DNA from: Labilibaculum sp. DW002
Lineage (GTDB): Bacteria; Bacteroidota; Bacteroidia; Bacteroidales; Marinifilaceae
Assembly: GCF_029029525.1 (NCBI RefSeq)
Contig: NZ_JAKJSC010000001.1
Coordinates: 1,054,001-1,118,000, forward strand
Reading direction: 5' to 3'
Length of the DNA: 64,000 nt
Both the position numbers and the translations under genes were made by a program. Of the stretch, positions 34,631 to 44,138 are shown one piece after another. Numbering within the stretch: position 1 is the first letter of the stretch; each line of letters starts with the position of its first letter. The notes beneath the pieces were generated by a model. That model saw only the letters and a program-made list of their open reading frames with translations. It made no database searches and had not been told where the DNA came from.

Positions 34631-34706
34631 AAAAAATCAATTCAAAATTTTTTTCCTTTACCTGATAAATGTAACTTTAGTAGAGCCGGAATAAATTTTG
34701 ACAGAT

Positions 34707-37388
34707 ATGCTTGCATTAAAAAAAAGATATATTAGAAATTTAAAAATTGAATTCCTTTTTCTATTTTTCTTATTATGCATTCCACTATCCTCCTATTCCA
34801 AACCAACCAATTCCCCTCCAAAAACTGAAAAAATAAAGCTTCAACTTAAATATTTTCATCAGTTTCAATTTGCAGGATACTACGCTGCACTTCATAAAGG
34901 TTATTACAAAAACGCTGGACTTGATGTAGAAATCATTGAAGGTGGCACAATTAATTCAATCGAGACGGTTGTCTCCGGTCAAGCAGATTATGGAATCGCT
35001 GCCAACGATATACTCATTGAAAGAATCAACAAACAACCTATCGTTTTACTGGCATGCATCTTTCAAAGTTCTCCATCCGTATTTCTGAGTCTCGAAAAAT
35101 CGAACATTCATACCGCTCACGACCTTATAGATAAAAAAGTTATGCTCTTGGACGAATTCCGAGATCCGGAGTTGATGGCCATATTCCATCAAGAAGGAAT
35201 ACAAATCAATGATATCCATAGAATTTCAACCTCTTATGATATAAATGATCTTATTGGTGGTAAAACAGATGCATTAAACGCTTACATAACAAACGAACCA
35301 TACTTTTTAAAAGAACAGAACATCCCTCACACTATCATATCTCCTAAAACTTATGGCATTGATTTTTATGGAGATGGTATTTTCACTAGTGAAGATGAAG
35401 TGAAATTAAATCCAGATAGAGTACAAGCTTTTTTGAATGCAAGCAAAAAAGGATGGGAATACGCCTTGGAAAATCAAGATGAGATTATTGACGTAATCAT
35501 TAGCAAGTATTCAGATAAAAAATCAAGAGCTCATCTTGAATTTGAAGCTGAGCAAATCAAAAAGCTAATTCTAAACGAATATGTTGAAATAGGTCACATC
35601 AATCCAGGCAGGATTCAAAACATTGCCGATATCTGTGCAAAAATGGGAATGATTCCGCTTAATTACGATCTTACAGGATTTATCTATGAACCTGAATCAT
35701 TCAATACGCCAACATGGCTAAAATGGCTTTTGGGAACAACTTTAGGCCTTATCATTATTGTAATTGGTATATCATCCTACTTATTTCTTTTCAACAAGCA
35801 ATTAAAAAAAGCTGTTGCCAAACAAACATCAAGCCTTAGCAATAAAAATAGCGAATTGCAGAAAGAAATATCTGAAAGAATAAGAATTGTTGCCGCCTTA
35901 AAACAATCTGAAAAACGCTTTAGAGAAATGGTTGAAAACTTACCTTCAGGTGCCATTCTAAATGAAAATGATAAGTTATTTATAAATAAAAAGGCATACG
36001 AGATTACAGGATATACCAACAAAGAACTAGCGGACTTTGACACCTGGTTTTTAAAATTATATCCTAGTAGTAAAAAGAAAAATTTACAATTATACCTTGA
36101 GAATAAAAACAATAATTTCAATGAGATTATCACGACAAGTATTACGTGCAAAAACGGCAAACAAAAACAAGTAGAATTTCACTGCTACCAATTTGAACGC
36201 AAAGAAATATGGTTAATGAATGATATTTCTCGCAGATTAAAGACTGAAAATGCTTTAATTGCCAGTGAAAATAAACTCAGAGCTTACATTGAAGAATCTC
36301 CTAATGGATTGGTTATTTTTTCACCAAATACAAAAATAGTATTTACCAATCGGGCTTTTATTGATCTAATGGATATTTCAAATGATAGACTCGACGATAT
36401 CTACATACCTGATTTTTTCGCTCCTAAGCATCTAGAACAAAACCAAAAATTACTCACCCAACTTTTAACGGAAGGCAAATGCCAAGGTGAAGTTGTTATT
36501 CAATCATTTCAGGGTAAGAAACACCCTGTATATATAAGTGCTGTAAAACTAATCAACAACGAATACCTAGCCTTTATCGTTGATATTTCCGCAATCAAGA
36601 AGGCTGAACATGAATTACGAATAGCTTTAGAAAGAGCAGAAGAAAGCGATCGGTTAAAATCAGCCTTTCTTGCAAACATGAGTCACGAAATTAGAACTCC
36701 TATGAATGGAATTCTTGGCTTTAGTCAATTACTATTAAAACCAGGTCTTACACAAGAAAAAAAAGAGAAATACCTCGATATTTTAAATCAAAATGGAAAA
36801 CAATTACTTGGGATTATTAATAATATTATAGATATCTCCTACCTTGAGGTAAACCAATTAAAATCCAACCCAACGTCATTCTCCATTAAAAAACTGTTTG
36901 ATGATCTAAACACCTTCTTTATTCTTGACGAAAATCGATTTCACAAGACAAATGTCAAACTCATATTTGACAACCAAGTTCCCCAGGAAACAGACTTCGT
37001 TATTTCTGATCTGGGCAAGATCAAGCAAATTCTAATAAACCTCATTAACAATGCTTTAAAATTCACTAAAGAAGGACACATTCGTATCTCATCGCAGGTT
37101 AAAAAATCAAATCTACACCTTAGCGTAGAAGATAGCGGTATTGGTATTCCAAAGGAAAAACAAAAATTGATTTTTGAACGATTTGGGCAAGTTGAAAATA
37201 TTTACACTCGCCAATTTGGAGGTGCAGGCCTAGGCCTTCCTATTTCGAAAGGATTAATAGAACTACTTAAAGGTGAACTACACATGGAATCTAATGAAGG
37301 AATTGGGTCTAAGTTTGAATTTCATATCCCAATAAATACAAGCCCAAAAGAAACAACACTCAAAAACTTGAAACAAGAAGATAAATAG
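34707..37388 (+). CDS. histidine kinase with NMT1/THI5-like sensor and two PAS domains
   Basis: An 893-residue hybrid sensor; the ATG at 34707 is chosen over a TTG at 34698. A signal/anchor segment (about 13-31) is followed by an NMT1/THI5-like substrate-binding domain (43-325; LQLKYFHQFQFAGYYAALHKGYY, VSGQADYGIAANDILI), a fold that in transporters and enzymes handles pyrimidine thiamin precursors and related compounds. A membrane helix (340-362) and coiled coil precede PAS domains (about 403-512 and 521-632), HisKA (H660, MSHEIRTPMN) and an ATPase domain (NNALKFT, EDSGIGIP, GAGLGLPI). No receiver domain or regulator gene is adjacent. It is convergent with the polysaccharide operon, 21 bp away. 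Confidence 0.9.
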   Translation: MLALKKRYIRNLKIEFLFLFFLLCIPLSSYSKPTNSPPKTEKIKLQLKYFHQFQFAGYYAALHKGYYKNAGLDVEIIEGGTINSIETVVSGQADYGIAANDILIERINKQPIVLLACIFQSSPSVFLSLEKSNIHTAHDLIDKKVMLLDEFRDPELMAIFHQEGIQINDIHRISTSYDINDLIGGKTDALNAYITNEPYFLKEQNIPHTIISPKTYGIDFYGDGIFTSEDEVKLNPDRVQAFLNASKKGWEYALENQDEIIDVIISKYSDKKSRAHLEFEAEQIKKLILNEYVEIGHINPGRIQNIADICAKMGMIPLNYDLTGFIYEPESFNTPTWLKWLLGTTLGLIIIVIGISSYLFLFNKQLKKAVAKQTSSLSNKNSELQKEISERIRIVAALKQSEKRFREMVENLPSGAILNENDKLFINKKAYEITGYTNKELADFDTWFLKLYPSSKKKNLQLYLENKNNNFNEIITTSITCKNGKQKQVEFHCYQFERKEIWLMNDISRRLKTENALIASENKLRAYIEESPNGLVIFSPNTKIVFTNRAFIDLMDISNDRLDDIYIPDFFAPKHLEQNQKLLTQLLTEGKCQGEVVIQSFQGKKHPVYISAVKLINNEYLAFIVDISAIKKAEHELRIALERAEESDRLKSAFLANMSHEIRTPMNGILGFSQLLLKPGLTQEKKEKYLDILNQNGKQLLGIINNIIDISYLEVNQLKSNPTSFSIKKLFDDLNTFFILDENRFHKTNVKLIFDNQVPQETDFVISDLGKIKQILINLINNALKFTKEGHIRISSQVKKSNLHLSVEDSGIGIPKEKQKLIFERFGQVENIYTRQFGGAGLGLPISKGLIELLKGELHMESNEGIGSKFEFHIPINTSPKETTLKNLKQEDK

Positions 37389-37409: not shown

Positions 37410-38867
37410 CTACTTTTTAGAAAGTTGATCATCTTTCTTTTCTTTATTATGTAAAAATCCTTTACGCTCCATTTTACCCCAAGAACGATTCCCCATTAAA
37501 TATTCAATATTCCCCTTTACTGCAAAACATAAAGTTAACGGATGCAGAATAAAAGGCTCTAAAAGAGCAGCTATCCATAAACGAAGAACATCCATTTTTC
37601 GCTCGTATCGATGAAAGGTTAACTCCTCGTACAAAATAGCCCAAGTAGAGAAAAATACGGCAAAAGTATAGACAAATAAAGAAGTCACAAGAATAAAATT
37701 TAGACTCAAGTTATCCGTAAAGTATAGAATTATTACATAAATAATACCTAACACCTCGATTAAAGGGGCTAGCCATTCAAATAAAAACCAAAATGGATAA
37801 CCTAATAAGCCCATTGCTCCATATTGTGGAGATAAAAATATTTTAGAATGATCGGTTAAGGTTTCTATTGTTCCTCTTGTCCATCTACTTCGCTGTCTAC
37901 CTAAAACCTTTATATCTACAGGTGCCTCTGTCCAGCAAAGTGGATCTGGAATATATTCAATCTTGTATTTCTCTCTATTTTCAGACATATACCTACGGAT
38001 ACGAACAACCAACTCCATATCCTCTCCAATAGAATGCGCATAGCCACCACTTTGCACAACCACATCTCTATCGAACATACCCATTGCCCCAGAAATAATA
38101 ATCAAACCATCTAATTGAGCCCAGGCCATTCGTCCCATTAAAAAGGAACGAGTATATTCCAGCACTTGCATTCTGGCCAATAAATTACTCGGAACTTTAA
38201 CGTCGGTAATTCGTCCATTTTCAACCAAACAGGAGTTGGCAATTCGAACTACTCCACCAGCTGCAATTACCCTTCGATCAGTTCTCTCTAAAAATGGCTT
38301 CACCAATTTCAACACAGCATCTGGCTCCAGAATTGAATCGGCATCAATAGCCATAAACAATGCTTTATCGGAAACATTAATTCCAGCGTTCAAAGCATCA
38401 GCCTTCCCACCATTCTCCTTATCTACTACGATCAGGTTGGAATAGGTTGATAGTTTTGATTTATATATTCCACGCACCTCTTTGGTAGGAATCTCCATAT
38501 TCAAAGCAAAATCAACTCTCTCCAACTTGAAAGCCGTCCTCATATCATCAAAGGTAGAATCTGTACTACCATCATTAATTACAATTACATCGAAATTATT
38601 GTAATGAATCGTATAAATGGATTCCACATTATCAACGATTGTTTTTGCTTCATTAAATGCTGGAACTAGAACAGAAACAGAAGGAGCTAAAGGAGAATCT
38701 AATATTACTTTATAATCAACAAAACTATTTTTCTTCAGGTAAAAATTCAAAGCAATACCAGAAATAATACTCAAAACGGTATAACTAAAAATCAATACGA
38801 ATGCATAGGATATAAATATCCTATCCAAAAAATAGCTTATAAACCTTATAAATTCGTCGTAATTCAT
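37410..38867 (-). CDS. processive family 2 glycosyltransferase (polysaccharide synthase)
   Basis: A 485-residue membrane glycosyltransferase of the cellulose/poly-N-acetylglucosamine synthase type. One N-terminal helix (18-42) precedes the GT-A domain: VPAFNEAKTI (68-77), NDGSTD (98-103), DAD (175-177), GED (281-283) and QRSRW (325-329), the D,D,D,QxxRW set of processive enzymes. Three or four C-terminal helices (about 346-372, 385-411, 428-452) would form the translocation channel. KENGGKADALNAG is the substrate-entry signature shared with PgaC/IcaA. Its start overlaps the HEAT-repeat gene by 4 bp. There is no PilZ domain here. Product likely a beta-linked homopolymer or alternating polymer; identity unknown. 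Confidence 0.9.
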   Translation of the reverse strand: MNYDEFIRFISYFLDRIFISYAFVLIFSYTVLSIISGIALNFYLKKNSFVDYKVILDSPLAPSVSVLVPAFNEAKTIVDNVESIYTIHYNNFDVIVINDGSTDSTFDDMRTAFKLERVDFALNMEIPTKEVRGIYKSKLSTYSNLIVVDKENGGKADALNAGINVSDKALFMAIDADSILEPDAVLKLVKPFLERTDRRVIAAGGVVRIANSCLVENGRITDVKVPSNLLARMQVLEYTRSFLMGRMAWAQLDGLIIISGAMGMFDRDVVVQSGGYAHSIGEDMELVVRIRRYMSENREKYKIEYIPDPLCWTEAPVDIKVLGRQRSRWTRGTIETLTDHSKIFLSPQYGAMGLLGYPFWFLFEWLAPLIEVLGIIYVIILYFTDNLSLNFILVTSLFVYTFAVFFSTWAILYEELTFHRYERKMDVLRLWIAALLEPFILHPLTLCFAVKGNIEYLMGNRSWGKMERKGFLHNKEKKDDQLSKK

Positions 38868-40057
38868 ATTCTCGGATCTAACACGTGCTTCACTATCCTC
38901 TTTAACTCTTCATCGCCACTTAAAGCTAAGGATTTCAGCTTATTTACTCCCACCTCACCAATTAATGCAATTGATTTGCAACATTCCAGTCTAATTTTAA
39001 ATTCCTCATCATTAATATTTTCAAGCAAAAAACTCAATTCACTTTCCAACTTTAAATGTCCTATCGATCTAATGATATTAATTTGATTCGGTAACTCCTC
39101 GAGTAAAAAAAGTTCTTTTAATTTACCAACCGCCTCTTTATTTTCAAGATCCACAAGCGTCTTAATCACCTTCCCTTTTACCAAATCATTATCATGACTT
39201 ACCAATTTAAGCACTTCTGGCACTGCCTCATTCTGCTTTAAAATTCGAATCATATCAAGGCAGAACATCACAACAGAATCATTCCAATGATTTAGCCACA
39301 AATGAAATTCAGGTATTTCAATTCTCTTTTTACGGATCAAATCAAAAACATTAATTTGCTCCCATACCGTAAATGGCTTCTCCTGTGAATCAAGAAAAGC
39401 AAAAGGGACAAAAGGCAGCAATTTTATCAATCCCATTTGAGATTCAATACGAAGAATTTCGTTAGGCTTTTGAAGATAATCCATAATTCGCTTATTTTCA
39501 CTCTTCACCCTCATGTGACTCAACTCTCTGATACCTTTAATTTTTTGATGCCATCTTTTTCGAAGTTTATTTACAGAGTCCTCATTTAATTTCAAATCCA
39601 AATATAATTTTCTAATTTTTCTACTGACTACTTTATTTTCAGCAGTATCAATAGCAATTAGAACGGCAGTAAAAACTTTTCTGTGAAATTTCGACTTTAA
39701 GCTTTTCAACTCTTTAAGCTCATCATCAGTCAATTCATCAATTAAAAAGCGAACAGCATAACCAGAATACTTTCTGAACAATCGCTCATATCTTTCCTTA
39801 CGATAAGCGATGTATAATTTTGAAAATATAATTGAAGGCAATAACACCATAAGTGCAATAGCAAAAATAATAATCATATAAATGATCAACCTATTTAGCA
39901 CATTATATGGTAAGCGTTCAAAAGTGTAATTAATTAACGCCTCTACCCTCTCAAATATTGAATTGAACAAATCTAGAAACACAAGCGAGACCCCGAACGT
40001 ACCATGAGTACATTCAACTATGCTATAAAAAATGATATTTATAAATGACAAATACAT
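38864..40057 (-). CDS. membrane-anchored HEAT-repeat protein
   Basis: A 397-residue protein with a strong membrane helix (about 57-82, RLIIYMIIIFAIALMVLLPS) and a large cytoplasmic part. From about 190 onward it is built of paired helices of the HEAT/armadillo kind, e.g. AVPEVLKLVSHDNDLVKGKV, KEAVGKLKELFLLEELP, ELSFLLENINDEEFKIRLEC and GVNKLKSLALSGDEELKRIV. A weak hydrophobic start (1-30) could be another helix. It sits between CotH and the GT2 synthase genes, overlapping the latter by 4 bp. A scaffold or regulator for the synthase is the natural reading; such a partner is not part of the textbook Pga, Bcs, Alg or Pel systems. Confidence 0.8.
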   Translation of the reverse strand: MYLSFINIIFYSIVECTHGTFGVSLVFLDLFNSIFERVEALINYTFERLPYNVLNRLIIYMIIIFAIALMVLLPSIIFSKLYIAYRKERYERLFRKYSGYAVRFLIDELTDDELKELKSLKSKFHRKVFTAVLIAIDTAENKVVSRKIRKLYLDLKLNEDSVNKLRKRWHQKIKGIRELSHMRVKSENKRIMDYLQKPNEILRIESQMGLIKLLPFVPFAFLDSQEKPFTVWEQINVFDLIRKKRIEIPEFHLWLNHWNDSVVMFCLDMIRILKQNEAVPEVLKLVSHDNDLVKGKVIKTLVDLENKEAVGKLKELFLLEELPNQINIIRSIGHLKLESELSFLLENINDEEFKIRLECCKSIALIGEVGVNKLKSLALSGDEELKRIVKHVLDPRI

Positions 40058-40071
40058 ATTTAGGTCCTACT

Positions 40072-41358
40072 CTATTTTTTCAATTCCTTATTTAGAAAAT
40101 CAATTCGTTTATTTAAAAATGACTTTAAGCCCGGTATAAATGCTCCCGCATCATTATAATCTCCAATCGTTTCATTAATATTCTTCTCAAAATCCTCATT
40201 ACTATACATCTTATGCGTATCGTAATATACCGACCTACGAATCCTCAATGTCAATTTATCAATTTCGTCACCCAAGGCAATTTTTGAAAATTTATCATCA
40301 AGTAAATGGTTGATATAGTCGAGATAAAATTTGCGATATTCAGAATTCGCAAATATGAATTTCATTAATGGACTATTCTTTTTCTCATACTGATAGAAAA
40401 TATCCAATTGCTGAGCTTGTTCTAAATTAAACTCTGGACTAAAAGCGCAAAAGGCATAATTTCCATCATAAGGAATCCATTCAAACTTTTCCGTTTGCTT
40501 ATTTTTATACAGGTAAAAATTATGTCGATAATGAATGTTATAAGCATCGATATTAACGAATAAATTAGTGATTGCAAAAATCTTCAAACAGTCCTCAATG
40601 TTGAACATTTCCTCAAAATCTACCAAGGCTTCATTCTCCTTTCCATTAACAACTTTAATTAAATCAATCAGATCAGAAAACCCATCTATCGAATCTTTCT
40701 TGTTTCTATAACTATTCTGATAATCTATAATTTGATCACCTAAAAATTCAAAACTAGCCTTAGGTTCACCTTTAAAGAATGCACCTTTCTTATTTTGAAA
40801 ATTACGCTTTAAAAAGCCTTTGTTAATCTCTTCTACTAAAGAATACAAGCCCATATATTCACCGTTCACATATACATTAGCGTAAGTACATCGGGGTGCT
40901 GGCAAACCTTCTTTTCTCATAAAATCGAGATAAAGCTTTTCCCTTAAAAAACTGGGATCTCGAAAAGCATTATTCAAATTAATAGTCTTTAAACCATCTA
41001 ATTTTTGCTTTTTAATATACTTCCCAAAATTAATTTTCAGTGACTTCTTTTTCCCAGGATAAAATTCAAAGGAAGACTCTCCCTTTATTCTAACGCCACT
41101 GCTATAAAACTTAACTCCATCAACTTCAACATTAGCTTGCATATATTTTTTAATTTCCAGAGAATCCCTCTCCTTCTTCATCAAAAACAATGAATCCCAA
41201 GGATTACTTTGAAGAAAGCTAATACGCACTTCATGAATTACATCTACTCCAAATATTCTGTCTCCACACAATGAATCTTTCTTTTCAGAAACATCCTGAG
41301 CAAATATTGGTGATGCATATAACAATCCTAACATTAGGATATTTAAAAATCTATTCAT
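40072..41358 (-). CDS. secreted CotH-family kinase-like protein
   Basis: A 428-residue protein with a signal peptide (1-20, cleaving after IFAQ). The mature part matches the CotH kinase family, atypical protein kinases named for spore-coat CotH. Visible motifs: GVRIKGESS (88-96), KKSLKINF (104-111; K107 is the likely ATP-site lysine), LNNAFRDPSFLREKL (128-142), APRCTYANVYVNGEYMGLYSL (154-174, split here for brevity), EEINKGFL (176-183) and the metal-binding-type WIPYDGNYAF. In Bacteroidota such proteins are exported, where the ATP source is unclear. It lies 5 bp from YaiO and 14 bp from HEAT in one operon. A role in modifying the polymer or its export proteins is inference. Confidence 0.85.
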   Translation of the reverse strand: MNRFLNILMLGLLYASPIFAQDVSEKKDSLCGDRIFGVDVIHEVRISFLQSNPWDSLFLMKKERDSLEIKKYMQANVEVDGVKFYSSGVRIKGESSFEFYPGKKKSLKINFGKYIKKQKLDGLKTINLNNAFRDPSFLREKLYLDFMRKEGLPAPRCTYANVYVNGEYMGLYSLVEEINKGFLKRNFQNKKGAFFKGEPKASFEFLGDQIIDYQNSYRNKKDSIDGFSDLIDLIKVVNGKENEALVDFEEMFNIEDCLKIFAITNLFVNIDAYNIHYRHNFYLYKNKQTEKFEWIPYDGNYAFCAFSPEFNLEQAQQLDIFYQYEKKNSPLMKFIFANSEYRKFYLDYINHLLDDKFSKIALGDEIDKLTLRIRRSVYYDTHKMYSNEDFEKNINETIGDYNDAGAFIPGLKSFLNKRIDFLNKELKK

Positions 41359-41363
41359 ACCAT

Positions 41364-42659
41364 TTAAAATTGATAAGACAACTTAAGGGATAATGATATC
41401 ACATCTCGTTTCACATCCACTAAATACTCTTCTTTTTCATATCCTAATCGAAGCAAGTAAATAAAACGATCGGTAAACAGACGATCTTGATATGAAAGAC
41501 GAATTTTTTGACTTTTGTAATTATAAGTATCAAAAGATGAAATATTTCCTTTTGGTTCATCTGGCGAAACTCCAGTACCCAATTGCAATCCAAAATAATT
41601 CTTAGCGTTTCGTAAATAGCGTCTTACCGACAACCAATAAGATTGAGATACTTCACTATTCTTAGGAGTAAGATAGGTTCTGAAGTTGAACCAATAGTTA
41701 CGATAATACTTCCCTAAGGAAGCAGTATAAATATATATGTCCTTGCTGCCAGAGTCAGAATCGAACTGAAGGAAACGAAGTCCAGCAGAAATTTCGAAAG
41801 ACTTGGGTAATTTACGATACAATTCAGCACCTGCTCTATGTCTTGGAAATAGATTATCAGGTGAATATCCATAACTTAAATAAGCATAACTCTTCTTAGA
41901 AATCTTAGGGTAAGCATCCAACTCAAATTGTTTTGAAACTTCATTAGACCAGAAACTTTCTCCTGAAGAAATTAAATCGCCTAAATTAATTTTCGCAATC
42001 AAACTCCCCCATGAATTTCTTCTCGCAAGTTGAAATGAACTAAGATGCCATCTTCTCTCATAAGGCTCATTGAAATATTCAAAATCATGTTTGTAAACCG
42101 CCTTGTAAATCATTTTAGACGATCGATATTTTTTTAACAAAGCTACTCCTTCTTCACTTCCAGGATTCAACTCTAACAATTCATCTAAAGTTTGCATTGA
42201 CTTTCTGTCGTTGCCTGTATTTTGATATAATTTCGCCTTTTTAACTAAAAACAGTTCATCATTCGGAAAAAAGGATTGACCATATTCACAATAAAAAATT
42301 GCTTTAGATGGATTTCCAGCCCAAGACTCCAAATCAATCATTGCCATAACAGCATCCTTATTGTCTAAATCTTCTTTTAAAACTTTATCCAACTCCACCC
42401 TAGCAGAATCAAAATTTTTCTCCCAAGAAAACGTTCTTCCAATTAATATTCTTGCATCATAATATTTAGGGTTCTCCTCTAATATTCGATAACAAATACT
42501 TCGAGCTTCTGCCTTTTTTCCAGAAAAAGCTAATTCTTTTGCTCGTTGAAATTCACCAGAAACACTAGCTATTTTTCCAATGTCATTTTGCGCCGATGCA
42601 AAATTAACCAAACAAATAACATTTAATAAAACTATAAAAAGAGATAAAATTCTAATCAT
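41364..42659 (-). CDS. TPR-YaiO outer-membrane beta-barrel protein
   Basis: A 431-residue outer-membrane protein. After a signal peptide (1-23) come tetratricopeptide-like helical pairs (about 35-170; AKELAFSGKKAEARSICYRI, NPKYYDARILIGRTFSWEKN, YQNTGNDRKSMQTLDELLEL). Residues 175-431 form a YaiO-type barrel with alternating aromatic strands ending in LSLKLSYQF, a terminal Phe expected for Bam-dependent insertion. A TPR periplasmic region joined to a barrel is the architecture of polysaccharide exporters such as PgaA and BcsC. It is 5 bp upstream of the CotH gene. Export porin for the GT2 product is the likely role; YaiO family function is not established. Confidence 0.85.
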   Translation of the reverse strand: MIRILSLFIVLLNVICLVNFASAQNDIGKIASVSGEFQRAKELAFSGKKAEARSICYRILEENPKYYDARILIGRTFSWEKNFDSARVELDKVLKEDLDNKDAVMAMIDLESWAGNPSKAIFYCEYGQSFFPNDELFLVKKAKLYQNTGNDRKSMQTLDELLELNPGSEEGVALLKKYRSSKMIYKAVYKHDFEYFNEPYERRWHLSSFQLARRNSWGSLIAKINLGDLISSGESFWSNEVSKQFELDAYPKISKKSYAYLSYGYSPDNLFPRHRAGAELYRKLPKSFEISAGLRFLQFDSDSGSKDIYIYTASLGKYYRNYWFNFRTYLTPKNSEVSQSYWLSVRRYLRNAKNYFGLQLGTGVSPDEPKGNISSFDTYNYKSQKIRLSYQDRLFTDRFIYLLRLGYEKEEYLVDVKRDVISLSLKLSYQF

Positions 42660-42760
42660 CCGCTTTAATTTTTACACATTTTATACTTTACAATAATCAC
42701 ACTTAAATAACAGCCTGCAAATTACGAACAATAATTTCATATTGTCAAATATAATTTAAC

Positions 42761-43933
42761 TTAATCTAGATACCTTATTTTCCTAGCCTTACGGGCTACT
42801 ATACTATCCATAACGTTCCCCATAAATGGTCGATAATACTTCCAAAAGAACATTTTTCTATCCTTAACTTGATTTGCACTATAAAATGCACCACTTAATT
42901 TATTCACTCCTCTGAAATATGAGGAGTAGATTCCCATCTCATTATCAGAAAAATCACAAGCAAAATAGAGAAACCTATATTTATCATCATGTTCTATGAT
43001 CGCAGGAAATCGATTTGGCAAATTATAATGATCCAATAACTTTTGTCCTGCTTCAGTCACATCTAATTTAAACCATGCTAACACATGATTTCTTTCATCT
43101 GTTGTATTAATATCAAACCAAAATGGATAATAAATTTTTTCTGGAACATTATACTGCAAATGCGTACTCAATTCACTTTCCAATACAGGGAAACGTTGCT
43201 TTAAATGTAGTTTAGCATCTAAAATGACAATTCTTTCTTTGTCATCAACCAATACAATTCCTGCTTTGTTAAATTTGTATTCTTTCTTGTAATTCTTTCG
43301 GTAAAGATTTGGAATCCATTTCGGAATCTCCGGATCGAGAATCGTATCTAATGTTTGATAATACTTACCAACCCAACCTTTCCATCGCACTCCTAATAAC
43401 TCCTCTGTCTGTCTTCTTATAACTGGTTTTGTTGGAGATGCATAAAGGTTAAACTCGGCAATTATCGTTTTTCCTTTTCTTTTCATTTCTCGAAGCAAAT
43501 TAAACTCTGCTTCTTTTAATCCACCATAAAACAAAGAAATTGTATCTTTTCCATAATCTGGATGATCCTTCCAATTGGAATTATAAATCCCATACGTATC
43601 TGCAAAAAAGGCAACATCCAAAGAATCTGCTACATTCTCCAAACCTCTCTTACCTAAAACTTTCAAATCCTTAATCTTATATCTACCATCATCTTCAGGA
43701 TGAAAACCATAAAAATCTTCAGCAAAATTATATTCATCTCCATCTGGCTTTACCCAGCGTTTTTGATTGGCCACCCAAAAAAAGGAAAGGTGTTCGGAAT
43801 AATTCCCATTCGGAGTTGTTTTATCCAACACCAAAAGGTTAATTTGTTCCTGATCCATAAGCTTCCAACTAATCCATGAAATCACTGGAATCAATAAAAA
43901 CAAAAAAATAATTACACGTAGTAATTTCCACAT
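42761..43933 (-). CDS. uncharacterised single-pass membrane protein of the exopolysaccharide operon
   Basis: About 390 residues from the ATG at 43933, chosen because a membrane helix (about 4-23, RVIIFLFLLIPVISWISW) follows it directly and AAAGAAAAGAG precedes it; the frame runs on to 44050. The extracytoplasmic part begins LLVLDKTTPNGNYSEHLSFFW and has the blocks FYGFHPED, VAFFADTYGIYN, FYGGLKEAEFNLL, IAEFNLYASPTKP and GVRWKGWVGKYYQ, an ordered pattern suggesting a conserved enzyme-like domain of the amidotransferase/hydrolase-like alpha-beta kind, though I cannot name it. First gene of the minus-strand operon with YaiO, CotH, HEAT and GT2. It may process the polymer in the periplasm. Confidence 0.7.
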   Translation of the reverse strand: MWKLLRVIIFLFLLIPVISWISWKLMDQEQINLLVLDKTTPNGNYSEHLSFFWVANQKRWVKPDGDEYNFAEDFYGFHPEDDGRYKIKDLKVLGKRGLENVADSLDVAFFADTYGIYNSNWKDHPDYGKDTISLFYGGLKEAEFNLLREMKRKGKTIIAEFNLYASPTKPVIRRQTEELLGVRWKGWVGKYYQTLDTILDPEIPKWIPNLYRKNYKKEYKFNKAGIVLVDDKERIVILDAKLHLKQRFPVLESELSTHLQYNVPEKIYYPFWFDINTTDERNHVLAWFKLDVTEAGQKLLDHYNLPNRFPAIIEHDDKYRFLYFACDFSDNEMGIYSSYFRGVNKLSGAFYSANQVKDRKMFFWKYYRPFMGNVMDSIVARKARKIRYLD

Positions 43934-44138
43934 CTGCTCTTTTCTTTTTAATATTACTGCAAAACTCATCTTTATAACGGGTTTACACAAGCTAAGGTTT
44001 GTTTTTTTTGATAAGTAAATTCTTATTATGGACGTAAGACTCCATTTCATACATCACAATCGTATTGTTTTTTATCTAAATCGTTTAAAATAGATGTTTA
44101 AAAGACAATTTTCATTAATTAATCAAACTATTTAATCC

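Follow-up and report, generated by a model that had tools for sequence, protein, structure and literature searches.

The best-studied synthase-dependent polysaccharides are those of Proteobacteria, and they are controlled by cyclic di-GMP (c-di-GMP), to which the synthases of the Pga, Alg and Bcs systems all respond. Such systems combine an inner-membrane polymerase with periplasmic modifying enzymes, an alpha/alpha repeat and a barrel porin, which in BcsC and PgaA has 16 strands (PMC9384988). The locus described here is a five-gene operon of Labilibaculum sp. DW002, a member of the Marinifilaceae (Bacteroidota), situated in a stretch of 64,000 nucleotides (positions 1,054,001 to 1,118,000 of contig NZ_JAKJSC010000001.1), hereafter the window. 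It runs from 43933 to 37410 on the minus strand of the window as five open reading frames, the first four spaced by 101, 5 and 14 bp and the last two overlapping by 4 bp, and it encodes, in order, a protein that we call UNK, a YaiO-family barrel protein, a CotH-kinase-family protein, a HEAT-repeat protein and a family 2 glycosyltransferase (GT2). We consider, with a probability of about 0.68, that the operon specifies an undescribed variant, spread across Bacteroidota, of the machines for synthase-dependent exopolysaccharide export, in which the synthase is partnered by the HEAT protein and the accessory genes are interchangeable. A description of this Bacteroidota gene combination was not found in the literature searched, whose coverage excludes most subscription papers, and a systematic survey of biofilm operons makes no mention of Bacteroidetes, HEAT or CotH.

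The GT2 gene (37410–38867, minus strand) encodes a protein matching Pfam PF13641 (4e-22), with transmembrane (TM) helices and the motifs D99, D175xD177, GED281–283 and QRSRW325–329, features that fit a predicted processive synthase of the inner membrane. Of the curated families PgaC/IcaA is the nearest (NCBIfam PgaC_IcaA, 1.9e-39), and the PgaA TPR model also gives a match (1.2e-5), as would be expected if the operon were a divergent poly-N-acetylglucosamine (PNAG) system of the Pga type. The bit scores nevertheless lie far under the equivalog cut-offs (135.8 versus 422.3 for PgaC_IcaA, 23.8 versus 366.65 for PgaA) and Pfam reveals no PgaB-type deacetylase among the five operon genes, making a PNAG assignment very improbable. 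The CelA model scores 25.6 bits against a cut-off of 699.1. Judged by the curated cut-offs, the operon is neither a Pga nor a cellulose system, in keeping with a first-pass annotation of this DNA, which had read the operon as a candidate undescribed exopolysaccharide machine.

The YaiO gene (41364–42659, minus strand) encodes a signal peptide followed by a TPR domain and an outer-membrane barrel. The scores against PF19413 (9.6e-55, 185.7 bits, cut-off 23.9) and TIGR04390 (148.3 bits, cut-off 32) assign the barrel domain to the YaiO family, and TPRs are matched besides. In the AlphaFold2 (AF2) model, which has a mean pLDDT of 93, TPR helices lead into 14 strands. The top Foldseek match is BcsC (9b8a, 3.4e-12), PelBC (9h80, 6.8e-08) being next among polysaccharide exporters. 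The model is that of a TPR-repeat, outer-membrane barrel porin, and YaiO is probably the exporter of the polymer. It is because this model joins a TPR domain to a barrel nearest to BcsC that we liken the machine to synthase-dependent exopolysaccharide systems; as far as motifs and model can tell, the module possesses two of their structural features, the synthase and the TPR-barrel porin. Non-polymerising members of the GT2 family do exist, and the operon might instead make a short glycolipid or glycosylate a surface protein, with no polymer secreted. The QxxRW, DxD and GED motifs, the chain-forming activity of the nearest curated relative, PgaC, and the TPR plus barrel exporter encoded alongside all argue against this proposal, which we regard as improbable.

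The HEAT gene (38864–40057, minus strand; HEAT_2, PF13646, 5.4e-9) encodes one predicted TM helix at residues 58–76 and a HEAT-repeat domain. SPOR domains are periplasmic, and since one precedes the HEAT repeats in a homologue (G233) and positive charges (Lys/Arg) are richer after the TM helix, the HEAT domain is probably cytoplasmic. Its association with the synthase was assessed in 395 genomes drawn evenly from Bacteroidota, with thresholds of E 1e-15 or better for HEAT and 1e-100 for GT2. HEAT homologues are present in 52 of these genomes and GT2 in 92, and for 59 of 60 HEAT matches the coordinates place a GT2 gene directly downstream on the same strand, at less than 3 kb. A second set comprised 59 loci flanked by five or more genes in both directions, taken from among the best GT2 matches listed; this set favours close relatives, and the even draw is therefore the better statistic. 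Within five genes of GT2, the flanked loci contain HEAT in all 59 cases, YaiO in 55 and a REC-containing protein in 50, and then UNK (15), a sulfatase/LtaS-family protein (14), CotH (3) and a GH16-like protein (1). We conclude that the recurring module is REC, TPR-YaiO, HEAT and GT2, and that HEAT is an unusual, near-constant partner of the synthase. The emphasis that the first-pass annotation placed on the HEAT protein was thus well founded, and of the combination for which it proposed a neighbourhood search, GT2 and YaiO recur across Bacteroidota, with HEAT, while CotH seldom does.

In other lineages a sulfatase/LtaS-family or GH16-like gene lies in the cluster. Some cluster proteins had been taken for a second GT2; they are in fact of the sulfatase/LtaS family. 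One such membrane protein adjoins GT2 at L122:11445-13490 and in relatives, in Sphingobacteriaceae and others, and may possibly be a phosphoglycerol-type modifier. One genome, apparently that of Labilibaculum sp. K2S (G770; L214, L215), has two GT2–HEAT systems, and accompanying one of them are UNK, a sulfatase-family protein, REC and a large kinase. The Bacteroidota-like GT2 on a 3-kb contig assigned to Armatimonadetes (L109) probably reflects a binning error.

Control by c-di-GMP, usual but not universal in synthase-dependent systems, probably has no counterpart here. No GGDEF domain was found in the genome by a search that was positive in control genomes, and c-di-GMP control of this synthase is therefore unlikely. 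Flavobacterium and Algoriphagus have hybrid kinases containing REC and Hpt domains upstream of the block, and the small REC proteins of the module mostly retain the phospho-acceptor Asp and the Lys. A switch running from REC through HEAT to GT2 is attractive, because the HEAT domain is probably cytoplasmic and the genome lacks GGDEF proteins, and we infer it on those grounds. The broader proposal, that synthases throughout the phylum answer to a phosphorelay, running from hybrid kinase through REC to a cytoplasmic HEAT adaptor, in place of c-di-GMP and are served by swapped exported modifiers, including a glycan-phosphorylating CotH, is put forward only tentatively. A stand-alone REC protein of 123 residues (G000:C5:115240-115599; L205) is the best small match to the module REC and a candidate orphan partner.

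The CotH gene (40072–41358, minus strand) encodes an exported protein with a strong match to PF08757 (2.8e-59, 201.7 bits, cut-off 23.8). Alignment with the solved CotH 5jd9 indicates that both catalytic Asp positions, D228 and D251 of the Bacillus subtilis protein (PMC7821199), are conserved, so that on domain and residues the window protein is a member of the CotH family. CotH is intact within the operon in eleven genomes of the family, that of the window included. In five others it has been lost or has decayed: it is shrunk to a 95-codon frame retaining the C-terminal part (L200, L201), reduced to a short relic with a stop inside a 196-bp gap (L211, L212) or replaced by an 80-bp gap (Labilibaculum sp. 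K2S, L098). All five retain intact UNK, YaiO, HEAT and GT2 genes. They cluster together on the GT2 tree, within CotH-bearing lineages, and loss is therefore a simpler account than later gain.

Further afield, CotH lies inside the block in 2 of the 59 flanked named loci, and any CotH at all is present in 19 of the 49 genomes carrying this GT2. Besides Marinifilaceae, two more Bacteroidales lineages have it in or near the block. In G233 the genes UNK-GH16-CotH(LTD)-LTD protein-Hpt-REC-YaiO-HEAT(SPOR)-GT2 follow one another on a single strand; in L128 a CotH with a tail like those of the type IX secretion system (T9SS) is convergent to the block, past a GH16-like gene. The architectures of the three settings differ, and recruitment thus looks to have been independent; recurrence in a second, unrelated block (G233) and near that of L128 also means that CotH is not mere noise. 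Overall, CotH is a recurrent, optional and dispensable part and not a core one. The first-pass annotation had proposed a distinct synthase-dependent variant in which HEAT and CotH proteins replace the usual accessory parts. The machine type is supported, with a YaiO similar to BcsC and scores below the Pga and Bcs cut-offs, as is the constancy of HEAT; CotH as a defining replacement is not, since it is rarely inside the block and has gone from five sister genomes that keep the other four genes.

Two readings of CotH itself have to be weighed. The first makes it a constitutive catalytic part, with the polymer or a component of the export apparatus as its phosphorylation substrate, and the intact copies in the family, the conserved Asp positions and the recurrence near UNK and GH16 in G233 and L128 speak for it. 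The five relatives without a functional gene and its rarity inside the block count against it, and we know of no ATP pool outside the cytoplasm; we judge this reading unlikely. The second, a surface or periplasmic binding protein with a non-kinase role unrelated to polymer chemistry, would suit the exported location, the LTD domains and T9SS-type C-terminal domain borne by another near-block CotH, and the study of fungal CotH proteins as virulence-related proteins (PMC9973265). A pure binder would have no need of the catalytic residues that are conserved here, and we treat this reading as possible, if doubtful. On the account that we prefer, CotH is an optional exported accessory of the exopolysaccharide machine.

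UNK (42761–43933, minus strand) is a single-pass protein with one predicted N-terminal TM helix; it appears exported, as does CotH and as periplasmic modifiers would be. It has no Pfam family match, and its matches to Protein Data Bank sequences are at chance level; homologues occur in 35 of the 295 genomes of the order. Its AF2 model (pLDDT 83) is superimposed on 3soz with a VIA Z of 15.1 over 205 residues and a root-mean-square deviation (rmsd) of 3.0, on 3rht with a Z of 14.5, and on the deacetylase Agd3 (6nwz) with a VIA Z of 13.2 over 207 residues and an rmsd of 4.6, so that the modelled fold is GATase1/ThuA-like. Despite this fold match, the Cys-His-Glu triad of class I glutamine amidotransferases is lacking, with no Cys invariant across 17 UNK homologues. 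The GATase1-like domain of Agd3, likewise without the triad, is reported to bind galactosaminogalactan (PMC7229062). It resembles UNK in fold and in its exopolysaccharide context, and differs in being a domain within a deacetylase, whereas UNK is a separate protein with a TM anchor. Because the Agd3 domain, of the same fold, has been assayed for polymer binding, a similar role may be proposed by analogy for UNK, which is probably a periplasmic glycan-binding or glycan-acting accessory. At three other loci (L058, L059, L060) small genes resembling Hpt and REC come after UNK, in a 20-kb stretch without a GT2 of this family. A role beyond this operon is suggested.

Nine more genomes of the family keep the order UNK-YaiO-CotH-HEAT-GT2, as do Marinifilum breve and a second strain of the species to which the window belongs; the window GT2 is 91% identical to its Labilibaculum counterpart and 85% to that of M. 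breve. Co-occurrence of all five genes outside the window, on which the first-pass annotation had staked its proposal, is thereby established, the same order recurring in ten other family genomes and the second strain; together with the HEAT–GT2 adjacency across the phylum, this goes beyond what chance would give. Its description of the locus was also accurate: coordinates and Pfam agree with the five minus-strand genes, their spacing and domains, and the terminal Phe of YaiO, the D,D,D,QxxRW signature of the synthase and the single TM helices of UNK and HEAT are all present. An alternative UNK start at 44050 was rejected; the start at 43933 is preferred because the UNK proteins of relatives begin at that Met. 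A scan of the locus for promoters and terminators gave no excess over shuffled sequences. Convergent with the operon, at 34698–37388 on the plus strand, is a gene for an NMT1-PAS-PAS-histidine kinase with an NMT1/THI5-like sensor domain (Pfam), syntenic in most of the family cases and a possible candidate regulator of the operon.

Several observations weigh against an exopolysaccharide machine of this type. The YaiO barrel taken alone is also similar to channels of the FadL, CymA and OmpG type, and with 14 strands it is smaller than the BcsC and PgaA porins. GT2 is found in more genomes than HEAT (92 versus 52), and therefore some synthases have no recognisable HEAT partner. The window operon itself contains no REC gene, and with 89 REC domains in the genome a REC partner cannot be assigned.

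If the exopolysaccharide reading is correct, GT2, seated in the inner membrane, would build the chain from a nucleotide-sugar and extrude it, and the TPR domain of YaiO would take up the chain in the periplasm for export through the 14-strand barrel. The anchored HEAT protein, its domain on the cytoplasmic side, would probably dock a CheY-like REC that receives its signal from hybrid kinases, and so take the place that c-di-GMP has in the Pga, Alg and Bcs systems. The targets of the exported UNK and CotH, whether for binding or for catalysis, may be the polymer or components of the cell surface. If true, a common machine of this kind in Bacteroidota, with HEAT partnering the synthase and a REC encoded nearby, would represent another mode of controlling exopolysaccharide synthases, in a phylum with many biofilm, gut and marine species, and the natural losses of CotH offer a ready comparison for what CotH adds.

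Comparison with known systems sets this locus apart from each. Bacillus CotH, the spore-coat kinase, is of the same family with the same catalytic Asp positions, but the window protein is exported, in a Gram-negative organism and beside a polysaccharide synthase, with no known substrate of the CotB/CotG type. The second CotH of the genome, about 31% identical, lies in a VTC-DUF4956-DUF2490-CotH-Cthe_2159 cluster (L067 6831-12120; G000:C9), where CotH again adjoins a carbohydrate-binding protein; that cluster differs in its VTC and DUF4956 genes, and its stretch has no GT2 match. The yaiS-yaiP-yaiX-yaiO cluster of Escherichia coli K-12 likewise pairs a YaiO barrel with an adjacent GT2 (YaiP) and adds putative modifying enzymes (the deacetylase YaiS and the acyltransferase YaiX, broken by IS2), but it is without HEAT, REC, UNK and CotH; its YaiO, of 257 residues, has no significant BLASTP match to the window YaiO, and the two GT2 proteins are 27% identical over 226 columns. 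With Bcs (BcsA/BcsC) the locus shares a predicted processive GT2 synthase and a probable TPR-barrel exporter; it differs in a GT2 that misses the CelA cut-off widely, a genome without GGDEF, a barrel of 14 and not 16 strands, a shorter TPR domain and the HEAT partner.

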